Positions 11,518 to 41,857 of a stretch of DNA of 48,897 nucleotides are shown here, piece by piece; positions within the stretch are counted from its first letter, which is position 1, and each line of letters starts with the position of its first letter. A model generated the notes under the pieces. It was given only the letters and a program-made list of their open reading frames with translations, did not search any database and was not told the DNA's origin. Made by a program: the position numbers and the translations under genes. This stretch comes from Minisyncoccota bacterium (GTDB lineage Bacteria > Patescibacteriota > Minisyncoccia > Phycocordibacterales > UBA9973): positions 1 through 48,897 of the forward strand of contig JAGOSH010000006.1 in NCBI GenBank assembly GCA_018062425.1, written 5' to 3'.

Positions 11518-11543
11518 AAGTAGGCCCCGGGGCCTACTTTTTT
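11518..11543. terminator. Bidirectional terminator, perfect 22-nt palindrome
   Basis: The 22 bases at 11518-11539 form a perfect self-complementary palindrome (GTAGGCCCCGGGGCCTAC core) flanked by a T-run to 11543 and by A-rich sequence upstream. It separates the small membrane protein from the convergent DnaQ-like gene and touches the latter's stop codon. Confidence 0.85.
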
Positions 11544-12258
11544 ATTTACCTAGATAGTGCTTGAGAGTATAAATCCAATCTTCATCTAATACATCAGACT
11601 TAACTTTCTCGGCATATAGCCATTCTAGCCAACCACGGTCTTCTTTGACCACGTCTTCAATCCTTTTGCCTTTATGCTTGCCAAAGTTTAGTTTTTTAAA
11701 TATTGACGGATGGGAAGAAATCTTGACCATCTCATCTATGGCTTGGTGTTCGCTCATACTGTCGTGCTCCATGATTTTCTTCTTTAACCTTTCAAAAAGT
11801 TGCTCTAGTACCAATACATCGCCCAGCGCATCATGGGCTTGAGCTTCTACCTCGATTTCGAGCAGATAGCGCAGATATTGCAGGTTGTAACGCTCTATTT
11901 TTTCTTCGGGGTCCAAGTGTCTGGCAACTCTGAGGGTGCAGATGAAATTCGCTGGAATGATATCTTCTTTTTTTATAATCATCAGGTCAAATGGTGCGTT
12001 GTGGGCTACCACCACAGAGTTGGCATCCTCGAAAAGATTTTTTATTTTCTTACTATCAGGGCTTTCTTGAAATGAAGGCTTACCGTCTAGCATCTTGTTC
12101 GAGATATGGTGCACTGCGGATGCCTCTGGGGGAACCTTGAAAGGGGGTTTATACAGCCCAACGAACTCACCGTCGACGGACTTGTAAGCTATCTGGCATA
12201 AATAGTCATTTTCGGTATTTCCGGTAGTTTCGGTGTCAAAAAATATGATTTTGCTCAT
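11542..12258 (-). CDS. DnaQ-like 3'-5' exonuclease with C-terminal DUF3820
   Basis: A 238-residue protein. Residues 1-160 form a DEDDh exonuclease: D8 and E10 (FFDTETTG), D91 (AHNAPFD), H142 and D147 (HDALGD). The C-terminal part (about 190-230) has FGKHKGKRIEDV followed by DRGWLEWL, the DUF3820 pattern found attached to DnaQ-type exonucleases. It could proofread or trim DNA or RNA ends; no polymerase domain or PHP partner is nearby. The minus-strand ATG lies exactly 6 nt after TAAAAT, in a divergent promoter only 27 bp long that is shared with the YqeY gene. Confidence 0.85.
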   Translation of the reverse strand: MSKIIFFDTETTGNTENDYLCQIAYKSVDGEFVGLYKPPFKVPPEASAVHHISNKMLDGKPSFQESPDSKKIKNLFEDANSVVVAHNAPFDLMIIKKEDIIPANFICTLRVARHLDPEEKIERYNLQYLRYLLEIEVEAQAHDALGDVLVLEQLFERLKKKIMEHDSMSEHQAIDEMVKISSHPSIFKKLNFGKHKGKRIEDVVKEDRGWLEWLYAEKVKSDVLDEDWIYTLKHYLGK

Positions 12259-12285
12259 ATGGTTATTTTAGCATATAATACATGT
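12251..12285. promoter_or_regulatory. 27-bp divergent leaderless promoter
   Basis: Plus strand: TTGCTC (12251-12256, inside the exonuclease gene), 17-bp spacer, TATAAT (12274-12279), six bases, ATG 12286. Minus strand: TAAAAT (12270-12265), six bases, ATG 12258. The two -10 boxes are 3 bp apart, so only one polymerase can occupy the site at a time. Confidence 0.7.
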
Positions 12286-12735
12286 ATGTTACATCAAGAA
12301 ATAAAATCTGGGATAAAAGAAGCCATGATGACCAAAAACGAGGTGCTACTTAAGGCGCTGCGCAACATGGTGGCCGCTTTTATGACCGAAGTCATGACTA
12401 AGGGCAGGAAACCGGATGAATTTCTTACTGACGAGGAGGTTATCGCTGTGATTACCAAGCTCTCAAAACAAAGAAAAGACTCAATCGAACAATTCAAAAA
12501 AGGTGGACGCGAGGACTTGGTGAAGGAAGAGGAAGCTGAGCTCGCCATACTAGAGAAGTATTTGCCAGCCATGATGGATCAATCCGAAGTAGAAAAACTA
12601 GCAAAAATGAAACAAACCGAACTAGGACTAAACGATGTGACCAAGAAAGGCATCCTAATGGCGGCACTCATGAAAGATTTGAAAGGCAAGGCGGACGGGT
12701 CGGTGGTGAAGACGGTAGTTGATTCTCTTTTTTAA
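12286..12735 (+). CDS. yqeY: GatB/YqeY domain protein
   Basis: A 149-residue protein of the YqeY family, related to the C-terminal tail domain of GatB/GatE. Typical features are the start HQEIKSGIKEAMMTKN, LLKALRNMVAAF, then KQRKDSIEQFKKGGREDLV and EEAELAILEKYLPAMM. YqeY is suspected to help tRNA-dependent amidotransfer, but its role is not settled; gatB lies 2.3 kb downstream. A frame-compatible ATG at 12259 would add nine non-conserved residues; ATG 12286 is chosen because it follows TATAAT by exactly 6 nt. The MYG1-like gene follows after 3 nt. Confidence 0.88.
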   Translation: MLHQEIKSGIKEAMMTKNEVLLKALRNMVAAFMTEVMTKGRKPDEFLTDEEVIAVITKLSKQRKDSIEQFKKGGREDLVKEEEAELAILEKYLPAMMDQSEVEKLAKMKQTELGLNDVTKKGILMAALMKDLKGKADGSVVKTVVDSLF

Positions 12736-38897: not shown

Positions 38898-40805
38898 CAA
38901 TACGTCTTCTGGGTCGACTTGAATGTGAAAGTTCTCGTTGTTTGAAATTTCGTTCAAGATTTGGTCGAGCGCTGGATTCAAGGTTCCATCAACATAAATT
39001 TCCGGTAATGACCAAAGACTATTTTCCAATCTGAGGAGTATATTGTTTCCGTATATAACTGGTTCGAAAGCATCGAGCATTTCTGCGATTTCATTTTGAC
39101 TGCTTTTCTTTGCTTTCCCATCTTTAGAACTTATTTTAATGAATCTTTTGTATGGTGGATAACCCAAGCTCTGTCTGTCTGCGAGCTCTTCTTTTACATA
39201 GCTCGCCAAACTGCCATTCAATATAGAGGTTATTACTCCGTCGTCGGTGTTTCTGGTTTCAATGAATAAATCTTTGCTGGTTTTCTCTAGGGTTTGCAAA
39301 ATAAGTTGAAGGATTTTTTCACTAATTTTGAAATTTGGTATACTCCACAATGAATCAAATGACACCATTACCGAAAGGGGCAGGTTTTCTTTTATATAAT
39401 ACAAAGCCATTTCTGTTCCCAGGAGTATAGAGCCTGGTGTTTTTTCAAATTCCTTTATTGTTTTTTCTGCGCCAGCTTTGGTTCTGACCGCTTCTTTGTT
39501 GAGCTCAAAGATTTTTGTATCTGGAAAATGTTTGGTTAGTTCTTCGTAAACTAACTCCGTCCCAACACCGAGTGTTATCAGGTTCCAGCTACCACAATTT
39601 CCACAAACAGTATCAGGATTTTTTTCATGTTTGCATTTATTGCAGACAAATAGTCTTTTCTTTTTGTCTTTGCTCATATACAGCACCAGTGGCGCTTGGC
39701 ATTCGGGGCAGTACACTGGAGTCTCGCAATGTTTGCAAACAGTATAAGTTGCTAGTCCTTTGCGTAGGGTAAAAACGAAAACACTTTGACCTTTTTCAAT
39801 AGTTTTCCTAATCTGGTCCAAGCTTTCTTCGCTTACTACTTGCCACTTACTGTTTTCATTTTTCTTCACTCCTTTTTCGATGACACGTATTACTGTGTCA
39901 GTGTTTATCCGAAAGGATATTGGTCGGACTTCACCAAAGCCCATAATTTCTTTGCGCCCGATGGTTTCAAATCGGAGTAGCGTGTCTGACAGTATTAGTT
40001 TGATTTTTGTTTTTTGTGCGTAAAGTTCAGTAAAAGTTCGTAGGTCTATACCCGGTTCAGTTACTGATTTGTAGGAACTACTGCTCTCGTGTTCAAGCAC
40101 GATAACCCGGATATCATTTCTGGGTATTGAAAGGTATGGTGCGGTGCCCAGTATGAGCAGAGCATGTTCCGAAGCTACGGCCTGTTTTACAGACTCTTCG
40201 AGTTTCTTTTTGGACATACCACTGTAAAGGGTAACCACAAAGTTTTCGATTCCACGACTGAGTACGTTTTTAAAAAACTCGATATCGCTTTCCCTTGGTA
40301 ACACAATAAACACGGACTGATGCAGGGCAAAGGATTCACGGATCAGGGTTTTGTAATATGAAATTCTGTCTTCGGTGTTTGTTTGAAACAATACTTTTTC
40401 AGGTTTTACGTTGCTGTCAGGTAGGTTGTGGTCTTGGGTGTATTTTATAAAAAGTTTAGACAACTCATCATAGTTTTCTTTTAATACTTCTGGTATTAGG
40501 TGTGACAAAACAAAGTTTTTGTTCAGGATCGAATACTTGGCCAAGTCCAGTGCCGAGGTGACAAATTCGTTCCTGAGGATAGAGTGCCCTTTAACCTCTT
40601 CTATTTTGCGCAGATTGAAATCCGCCCCCTTGATTTGCATCTTGCTTTCTAGGGCTTCTTTTACCTCTATCACTAGACCTAGGATTTTCCTTTTCCTCAA
40701 AGAAATAGAAACTATGTCGTTTACATGGACAGAAAGAGAGGTGAAATACGTTAATTCCTCTTCAAAAGCTACTTTTTGGAGCGGTATAACTGTTACTACA
40801 AGCAT
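38895..40805 (-). CDS. PriA-like primosomal protein with degenerate helicase motor
   Basis: A 636-residue PriA homologue. Kept features: the zinc module with eight cysteines (C357, C360, C366, C369, C388, C391, C401, C404), LGVGTELVYEEL, the LLGTEMALYY and IPNFKISEKILQLILQ segments, and the C-terminal RQSLGYPPYKRFIKI. Lost features: Walker A (residues 139-152 read LFQTNTEDRISYYK where GVTGSGKT is expected), the DEAH box (VLEHES) and the AGRAGR arginine motif (QTLEKTS near 505). It should therefore not hydrolyse ATP and may only recognise forks or load the helicase. The gene symbol priA is not assigned because catalytic function appears absent. ATG 40805 lies exactly 6 nt after a TAATAT box. 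Confidence 0.85.
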   Translation of the reverse strand: MLVVTVIPLQKVAFEEELTYFTSLSVHVNDIVSISLRKRKILGLVIEVKEALESKMQIKGADFNLRKIEEVKGHSILRNEFVTSALDLAKYSILNKNFVLSHLIPEVLKENYDELSKLFIKYTQDHNLPDSNVKPEKVLFQTNTEDRISYYKTLIRESFALHQSVFIVLPRESDIEFFKNVLSRGIENFVVTLYSGMSKKKLEESVKQAVASEHALLILGTAPYLSIPRNDIRVIVLEHESSSSYKSVTEPGIDLRTFTELYAQKTKIKLILSDTLLRFETIGRKEIMGFGEVRPISFRINTDTVIRVIEKGVKKNENSKWQVVSEESLDQIRKTIEKGQSVFVFTLRKGLATYTVCKHCETPVYCPECQAPLVLYMSKDKKKRLFVCNKCKHEKNPDTVCGNCGSWNLITLGVGTELVYEELTKHFPDTKIFELNKEAVRTKAGAEKTIKEFEKTPGSILLGTEMALYYIKENLPLSVMVSFDSLWSIPNFKISEKILQLILQTLEKTSKDLFIETRNTDDGVITSILNGSLASYVKEELADRQSLGYPPYKRFIKISSKDGKAKKSSQNEIAEMLDAFEPVIYGNNILLRLENSLWSLPEIYVDGTLNPALDQILNEISNNENFHIQVDPEDVL

Positions 40806-40843
40806 ATTTCAATATTAGCACAGACTGTGATATATTACCCTTT
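40806..40843. promoter_or_regulatory. Divergent leaderless promoters of priA-like and mreB
   Basis: Only 38 bp separate the two ATGs. Minus: TAATAT (40817-40812), 6 nt, ATG 40805. Plus: TTTCAA (40807-40812), 18-bp spacer, TATATT (40831-40836), 7 nt, ATG 40844. The -35 of mreB overlaps the -10 of the priA-like gene. Confidence 0.6.
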
Positions 40844-41857
40844 ATGGGACTCTTTTCGAGGAAACTAGGTATAGATTTGGGCACTGCCAATACCTTGGTG
40901 TATTTGCCAGGTAAAGGAGTCGTAATAAACGAACCTTCAGTAGTGGCTGTATCAGAACAGGATAACAAAGTTTTGGCAATAGGAATAGAAGCAAAAGAAA
41001 TGGTGGGCAAAACGCCAGACTCCATCATCGCGTATAGACCAATGAAAGACGGGGTGATCGCAGACTATCGTATCACCGAGGCCATGCTCCGGTATTTCAT
41101 AAACAAAGCATTGGGTAAATTTAATTTTTGGAAACCAGATGTGATGGTCTCTGTTCCGGCTGGTGTAACTTCGACCGAGAGGCGCGCCGTTGTAGAAGCT
41201 GCCATTCGTGCAGGTGCGCGCAATGCTTTTGTTGTGAAGGAGCCTATCTTGGCGGCTATTGGTGCGGGTATTCCTATATATGAATCCAAGGGTCACATGA
41301 TCGTGGACATCGGTGGTGGGACTACTGACGTGGCTGTGATATCTCTCGGTGGCATCGTGGCCTCTACTTCGGTGAAATGTGCTGGTACTAAAATCGACGC
41401 TGCTATTGCCGACTACATCAAAAAGACTTTCAACCTAGCTATCGGTGACCGTACCGCAGAGGAAGTAAAAATAAAAATCGGTGCAGCGGTACCACTGGAA
41501 GAAGAACTTCGAGTTACTATCAAAGGACGGGATTACATTCAAGGTCTGCCACGTAGCGCTCAGGTCAGCACCAACGAAGTAGTTAAAGCCATAGACAGCG
41601 AACTCAAACAGATAGTAAAAGCGATCAAAGAAGTCTTGGCAGAAACTCCACCGGAATTGGCTTCCGACATCATCGACCACGGTATCATCATGACTGGTGG
41701 CTCTTCGCTTTTGCGCAATTTACCTGATTTGATTTATCGCAAGACTGGAGTGAAAGCTGTAGTGGCTGAAGATGCCTTGTATTGTGTTGCAAAGGGAACC
41801 GGTATTGCGCTCGAACACTTGGATACATACAAACGTGCTATTTTGAGCAAAAAATAG
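40844..41857 (+). CDS. mreB: Rod-shape actin homologue MreB
   Basis: A 337-residue MreB. It starts with the amphipathic-like MGLFSRKLGIDLGTANTLVY, and contains the actin-type nucleotide motifs: phosphate 1 GIDLGTANT, phosphate 2 MIVDIGGGTTDVAV and adenosine motif IIMTGGSSLLRNL. MreB filaments guide cell-wall synthesis. The usual mreC, mreD, pbp2 and rodA partners are not adjacent. It is followed by a holB-like gene after 12 nt. Confidence 0.96.
   Translation: MGLFSRKLGIDLGTANTLVYLPGKGVVINEPSVVAVSEQDNKVLAIGIEAKEMVGKTPDSIIAYRPMKDGVIADYRITEAMLRYFINKALGKFNFWKPDVMVSVPAGVTSTERRAVVEAAIRAGARNAFVVKEPILAAIGAGIPIYESKGHMIVDIGGGTTDVAVISLGGIVASTSVKCAGTKIDAAIADYIKKTFNLAIGDRTAEEVKIKIGAAVPLEEELRVTIKGRDYIQGLPRSAQVSTNEVVKAIDSELKQIVKAIKEVLAETPPELASDIIDHGIIMTGGSSLLRNLPDLIYRKTGVKAVVAEDALYCVAKGTGIALEHLDTYKRAILSKK

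Follow-up and report, generated by a model that had tools for sequence, protein, structure and literature searches.

How can two divergent genes be expressed when only 27 bp separate their start codons? The window analysed here, a stretch of 48,897 nucleotides from a Minisyncoccota bacterium, is part of contig C3 of a 529-kb genome that is 75.5% complete and whose closest named relatives are mostly Candidatus Nomurabacteria. It carries a gene for a DnaQ/ExoX-like 3'-5' exonuclease of 238 amino acids on the minus strand (11542..12258; Pfam RNase_T, 2.6e-16, and ExoX-like_C, 1.5e-7), hereafter dnaQ, and yqeY on the plus strand (12286..12735, 149 amino acids; Pfam YqeY, 4.5e-34), which is followed by MYG1-like and Obg-like genes (Pfam). 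We propose, with a probability of about 0.82, that the gap holds two back-to-back -10 promoters, that both mRNAs are leaderless and both genes expressed, and that the arrangement is a standard module of this genus.

Two -10 boxes in a 27-bp gap

The starts given in the preliminary description are exact. The minus-strand ATG occupies 12258-12256 (CAT at 12256-12258 on the plus strand), the plus-strand ATG begins at 12286, and the 27 bp between them (12259-12285) read ATGGTTATTTTAGCATATAATACATGT. An alternative yqeY start at the ATG at 12259, which would give 158 amino acids, was rejected: relatives align from 12286, and the Pfam YqeY domain begins at residue 4 of the 149-residue form. The two hexamers reported earlier are likewise confirmed in the sequence. 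The minus box, TAAAAT (12265..12270; ATTTTA on the plus strand), and the plus box, TATAAT (12274..12279), are separated by 3 bp. A spacer of 6 nt leads from either box to its ATG, at 12259..12264 on the minus strand (AACCAT) and at 12280..12285 on the plus strand (ACATGT). With the A of the start codon taken as +1, both boxes fall exactly at -12 to -7. The entire space between them, 12271..12273, is taken up by TGC on the minus strand (GCA on the plus strand), the candidate extended -10 of the dnaQ promoter, a position at which relatives also carry TGN; the plus box has no preceding TGN in this genome. By eye, GGAG, GAGG and AGGA are absent from both strands of the gap. Of random shuffles of the 27 bases, 0.25% had both boxes at 6-8 nt, and the conservation described below is stronger evidence for promoter boxes than this statistic.

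The -35 elements had been placed inside the opposing coding sequences. The geometry of that proposal is right, but both candidates are weak. On the plus strand, TTGCTC (12251..12256) lies within dnaQ, 17 bp before TATAAT; it falls below the threshold of the promoter scan, shares only TTG with the consensus TTGACA, and is perhaps a chance match. On the minus strand, GTAACA (12287..12292) lies within yqeY, 16 bp before TAAAAT, and was picked up by the scan, which returned two promoter-like sites in the region against 1.1 expected, the minus site being the only one at the gap. Since the minus box carries an extended -10, a -35 element may be dispensable there.

In the mechanism that we envisage, a sigma70-type polymerase would read each -10, the extended TGC-TAAAAT for dnaQ and TATAAT for yqeY, and transcription would begin on the A of each start codon, yielding leaderless mRNAs that ribosomes would take up at the 5' AUG. 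Only one polymerase would fit at a time, yet both of these unrelated housekeeping genes would still be expressed, with competition that is mild at most, and the compact module would represent the standard architecture of this genus of Patescibacteria.

The gene pair and its gap among relatives

The gene pair is widespread among relatives. yqeY is present in 55 of 60 relative genomes, and named genomes contributed 32 DnaQ loci. Both genes occur in 60 of the 62 loci collected (L002-L063; in the sampled DNA, L030 is without dnaQ and L062 without yqeY), and they are divergent in all 60. Removal of identical copies left 48 distinct loci, the window included, with start-to-start gaps of at most 39 bp in 16, 50-63 bp in 3 and at least 96 bp in 29, up to 716 bp at L060. 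Conservation of the gap had been suggested as a check on the promoter reading; the gene order is indeed kept in relatives, but the gap is at least 96 bp in 29 of the 48 distinct loci, so that the refuting outcome named in that description, longer gaps despite a kept gene order, holds in part. The divergent pair reaches as far as L060 and L061, which have 43-53% identity. A blast search with both genes did not find it in 20 order-level and 20 class- or phylum-level stretches, and we therefore treat the pair as a trait of the genus.

What is conserved is the position of the boxes. The dnaQ box lies exactly 6 nt from the ATG in 39 of the 48 distinct loci against 1.0 expected from shuffles, which correct only incompletely for the fact that the start codon was chosen with the box in mind, and TGN precedes the box in 38 of these 39. 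The 6-nt spacer takes 20 different sequences across the 39 loci; thus its length is kept and not its sequence. The yqeY box is found at 6-9 nt in 17 of the 18 distinct loci with gaps of up to 60 bp, with TGN in 16 of the 18. The common short form, N6-ATTTTA-n-CA-N6/7-TG-n-TATAAT-N6-ATG, amounts to a divergent pair of extended -10 boxes. The distance from box to box is usually 11-13 bp in relatives and ranges overall from 3 to 13 bp. Aligned by eye with loci such as L040, the 27 bp of the window look like the 35-bp module of the genus minus 8 bp. The same 27-bp geometry (box, GCA, TATAAT) recurs in another genome between dnaE and the gene for GAPDH (L134), so the layout can arise independently.

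Does the yqeY box of the window work at all? Conceivably only one promoter is functional, probably the extended -10 of dnaQ, with yqeY read from elsewhere and TATAAT a by-product of AT-rich sequence. That the plus box has neither TGN nor a good -35, and that the scan reports the minus site only, would fit such a reading. We nevertheless consider it unlikely, given that TATAAT matches the hexamer consensus in full and stands at precisely the right distance, that the box is retained in nearly all short-gap loci, and that the dnaQ coding sequence directly upstream leaves scant room for another promoter. Having lost the TGN of its relatives, the yqeY box of the window could still be the weaker of the two, or yqeY could be driven in part from elsewhere.

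In the 29 loci with long gaps, an insert often separates the box from the ATG, mostly at yqeY and otherwise at dnaQ, which indicates that a leaderless start is obligatory for neither gene. In most of these loci the segment between the yqeY box and the ATG is an inverted repeat. For 23 of the 28 loci with gaps of 90-300 bp, the 32 nt at one end of the leader were compared with the 32 nt at the other: the mean complementarity is 13.8 for ends from one locus and 7.1 for ends from different loci, and a leader's own partner arm ranks first in 14 of the 23. The hairpin arms of the long-gap loci (L003-L058) thus differ between genomes and match within one. By eye, one core family of inserts occurs in both orientations. 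No Rfam family matched the long-gap loci tested; among 12 sources, the one match was a tRNA in the window. As a general gene class, the order "-10, hairpin, ATG" has weak support: a scan found it at 15 of 635 genes of the genus against 10 of 2400 control ATGs, many matches being of low complexity, and at 1 of 167 genes of the genome itself against 2 of 480 control ATGs.

In several relatives a 6-bp palindrome, GTGCTA-TTT-TAGCAC, is visible over the minus box, and a regulator bound there might control both genes. We regard this as highly improbable, for the palindrome is absent from the window and one of its arms is the extended -10 itself. As a candidate operator, GTGCTANNNTARCAC was searched for and rejected: in 8 of 36 genomes of the genus it has 8 occurrences in all, 6 falling at the dnaQ-yqeY promoter and only 2 elsewhere, a distribution that does not suggest a regulon.

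Putative leaderless starts across genome, genus and phylum

The layout is not peculiar to this gene pair. In a sample of 185 kb (35%) of the genome, with 172 genes that have an ATG candidate, a -10-like box stands 6-8 nt upstream of 53 genes, compared with 15, 13, 12 and 12 at four control offsets. The corresponding figures are 208 of 661 for the genus (40-57 at controls), 72 of 311 for the order (13-17), 39 of 340 for the class or phylum (11-18) and 1 of 32 for a 40-kb E. coli control (0-2). Together with the conserved spacing in relatives, this genome-wide signature supports the earlier proposal of two leaderless genes back to back; judged from sequence, dnaQ and yqeY are both very probably leaderless.

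Divergent pairs with both genes of this kind and a gap of up to 60 bp make up 5 of 24 in the genome's own sample (0.12 expected; gaps of 16-38 bp) and 6 of 80 in the genus (0.24 expected), all six in the genus sample of 17 genomes lying in the 20 stretches examined first, from 6 genomes, and none in the next 20, from 11 genomes. None was seen among 57 pairs of the order (0.02 expected) or 36 of the class or phylum (0.07 expected). Unrelated housekeeping genes are paired in this way, namely HIT/RecJ, Sod/metallo-beta-lactamase fold and peptidase M1/ScpA. Other housekeeping pairs of this kind are DprA/seryl-tRNA synthetase, DnaE/GAPDH, DapF/RpiB, the mreB pair described below and, in two genomes of which one was scanned, DUF4446/aminotransferase V. 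The dprA and seryl-tRNA synthetase starts (L137, 7598/7613) are divergent with a gap of 14 bp, and their -10 boxes overlap. The putative double-leaderless divergent layout is general in this genus.

The window itself contains a second such promoter, with signals on both strands of 40806..40843, between a minus-strand gene starting at 40805 (weakly PriA-like) and mreB, starting at 40844. Its boxes lie at 40812-40817 (minus) and 40831-40836 (plus), both with TGN. A search of 36 genomes yielded 30 mreB loci. The leaderless box is present in 27 of these, preceded by TGN in 25, and 21 of the 30 also show a divergent leaderless partner at a distance of 36-39 bp. That partner is in 12 of the 21 a long ORF resembling the one in the window, with its weak PriA match, and in the other 9 a small gene of 103-115 amino acids; six of the nine small partners, as read, look alike (L165, L176, L177, L184, L187 and L189), and the one member scanned had no Pfam match. 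The mreB double promoter is conserved across the genus even where the partner gene changes. Hairpins similar to those before yqeY are seen by eye before mreB in L170, L179 and L186.

Is the closeness of the boxes selected so that the two promoters exclude each other, as an either/or switch? The preliminary description had argued that two polymerases cannot bind together and that expression should be mutually exclusive. The first half is plausible from geometry: with 3 bp between the boxes, two polymerases could not be bound simultaneously, and the gene pair and both boxes are conserved across the genus. In E. coli, moreover, one side of a bidirectional promoter can be repressed when its counterpart is strongly activated (PMC12825309, in the part of that report drawn on here). 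The second half finds no support. The spacing of the boxes varies, and by eye inserts split the boxes in L028, L032 and L037, so that an overlap of two polymerase sites is not conserved and the gene pair can do without exclusion. Unrelated housekeeping pairs have the identical layout, and the mreB promoter keeps it with different partners. In the same part of the E. coli work, five bidirectional promoters were tested: their basal activity was insufficient for the two sides to compete, and repression required strong activation of one side (PMC12825309); exclusion at the present locus is accordingly possible and not expected. We consider a switch very unlikely.

Why would such compact promoters suffice? 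SD-like motifs are at background in the genome's own sample (18 of 172 genes, against 21 of 172 at a control position) and in the genus (56 against 78 of 661), slightly above it in the order (57 against 39 of 311) and clearly above it in the class or phylum (90 against 34 of 340); the E. coli 40-kb control gave 15 of 32 against 2 of 32. The 16S rRNA of this genome (L193, contig 1) ends in ...GGTCGTGGATTAATTCAATTTG, without CCUCC. A 16S pattern with CACCTCCTT was found in 0 of 60 relative genomes, the anchor preceding it in 43 of 60. In a draw from the phylum the pattern was present in 39 of 78 genomes and the anchor in 52 of 78, and a genome of the same class (G134) retains the pattern. Among the 3' ends read, CCTCC is present in 0 of 30 from the genus and order versus 27 of 30 from the phylum, which marks the former as a lineage without anti-SD. 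Putative leaderless starts thus rise where the SD system falls, a correlation that implies no causal or temporal order. Loss of the SD/anti-SD interaction is likely the context of the leaderless promoters: we propose that, with no such pairing in the lineage, no leader is needed, and a compact module becomes possible.

To a wider reading we would give even odds. The order of Patescibacteria that comprises Nomurabacteria and kin would have dropped SD/anti-SD, with many transcription units starting leaderless; in the genus, divergent genes would have collapsed onto shared gaps of 14-38 bp that consist solely of a pair of -10 boxes, frequently of the extended type; and later inserts would tend to be hairpins closing just before the AUG, which could fold out and so restore a 5' end beside it. 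The findings suggest how genes start in a large uncultured bacterial branch, with no leader, no Shine-Dalgarno sequence and -10-only promoters. This has a consequence for the annotation of gene starts in these genomes, and it offers a natural setting for testing how ribosomes with no anti-SD in their 16S rRNA translate leaderless mRNAs. The significance of the finding does not require mutual exclusion.

Comparison with known systems

Deinococcus-Thermus and Mycobacterium tuberculosis keep the anti-SD, unlike the lineage described here, in which CCUCC is missing. As in the leaderless genes reported for both (PMC12340547 and PMC3898074, respectively, in the parts consulted), the -10 directly adjoins the ORF and a leader is absent, which at the present locus is what we infer. 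The same part of the M. tuberculosis study calls closely placed divergent promoters common and gives PrpD/Rv1129c as a pair in which both genes are leaderless. TGN precedes only 7% of the conserved -10 motifs there (PMC3898074), whereas the dnaQ and mreB promoters of these Patescibacteria almost always have it.

16S tails without CCUCC, accompanied by few or no SD motifs, have also been described (PMC6107228, PMC10783764); Table 4 of PMC10783764 lists single genomes of Ca. Campbellbacteria, Wolfebacteria and Peregrinibacteria and two of Absconditabacteria. The excerpts of these two reports describe neither an order-wide loss in Patescibacteria nor a tie to leaderless promoters, and a search of the literature on Patescibacteria/CPR, mainly at the level of abstracts and excerpts, found no link between anti-SD loss and leaderless genes. 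As far as the consulted parts of these sources go, leaderless genes, divergent leaderless pairs and anti-SD loss are each already known singly (PMC3898074, PMC12340547, PMC10783764, PMC6107228).

The closest structural parallel for the boxes may be sought in the bidirectional promoters of Warman and co-workers, whose starts, in the portions of the reports used here, lie 7-25 bp apart with 10, 18 and 23 bp preferred, and whose -10 elements are overlapping or symmetric (PMC12825309, PMC10268837). The dnaQ-yqeY gap resembles them in that its divergent -10 elements are too close for two polymerases. It departs from the definition as excerpted from PMC10268837 in that its putative starts (12258 and 12286) are 28 bp apart, outside the range of 7-25, and its boxes are separated by 3 bp instead of overlapping; it also differs in that both products would be leaderless mRNAs. 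Judged by their predicted starts, three other divergent pairs of this genus, with the shorter gaps of L137 (14), L068 (16) and L069 (23), fall within the range reported for bidirectional promoters.
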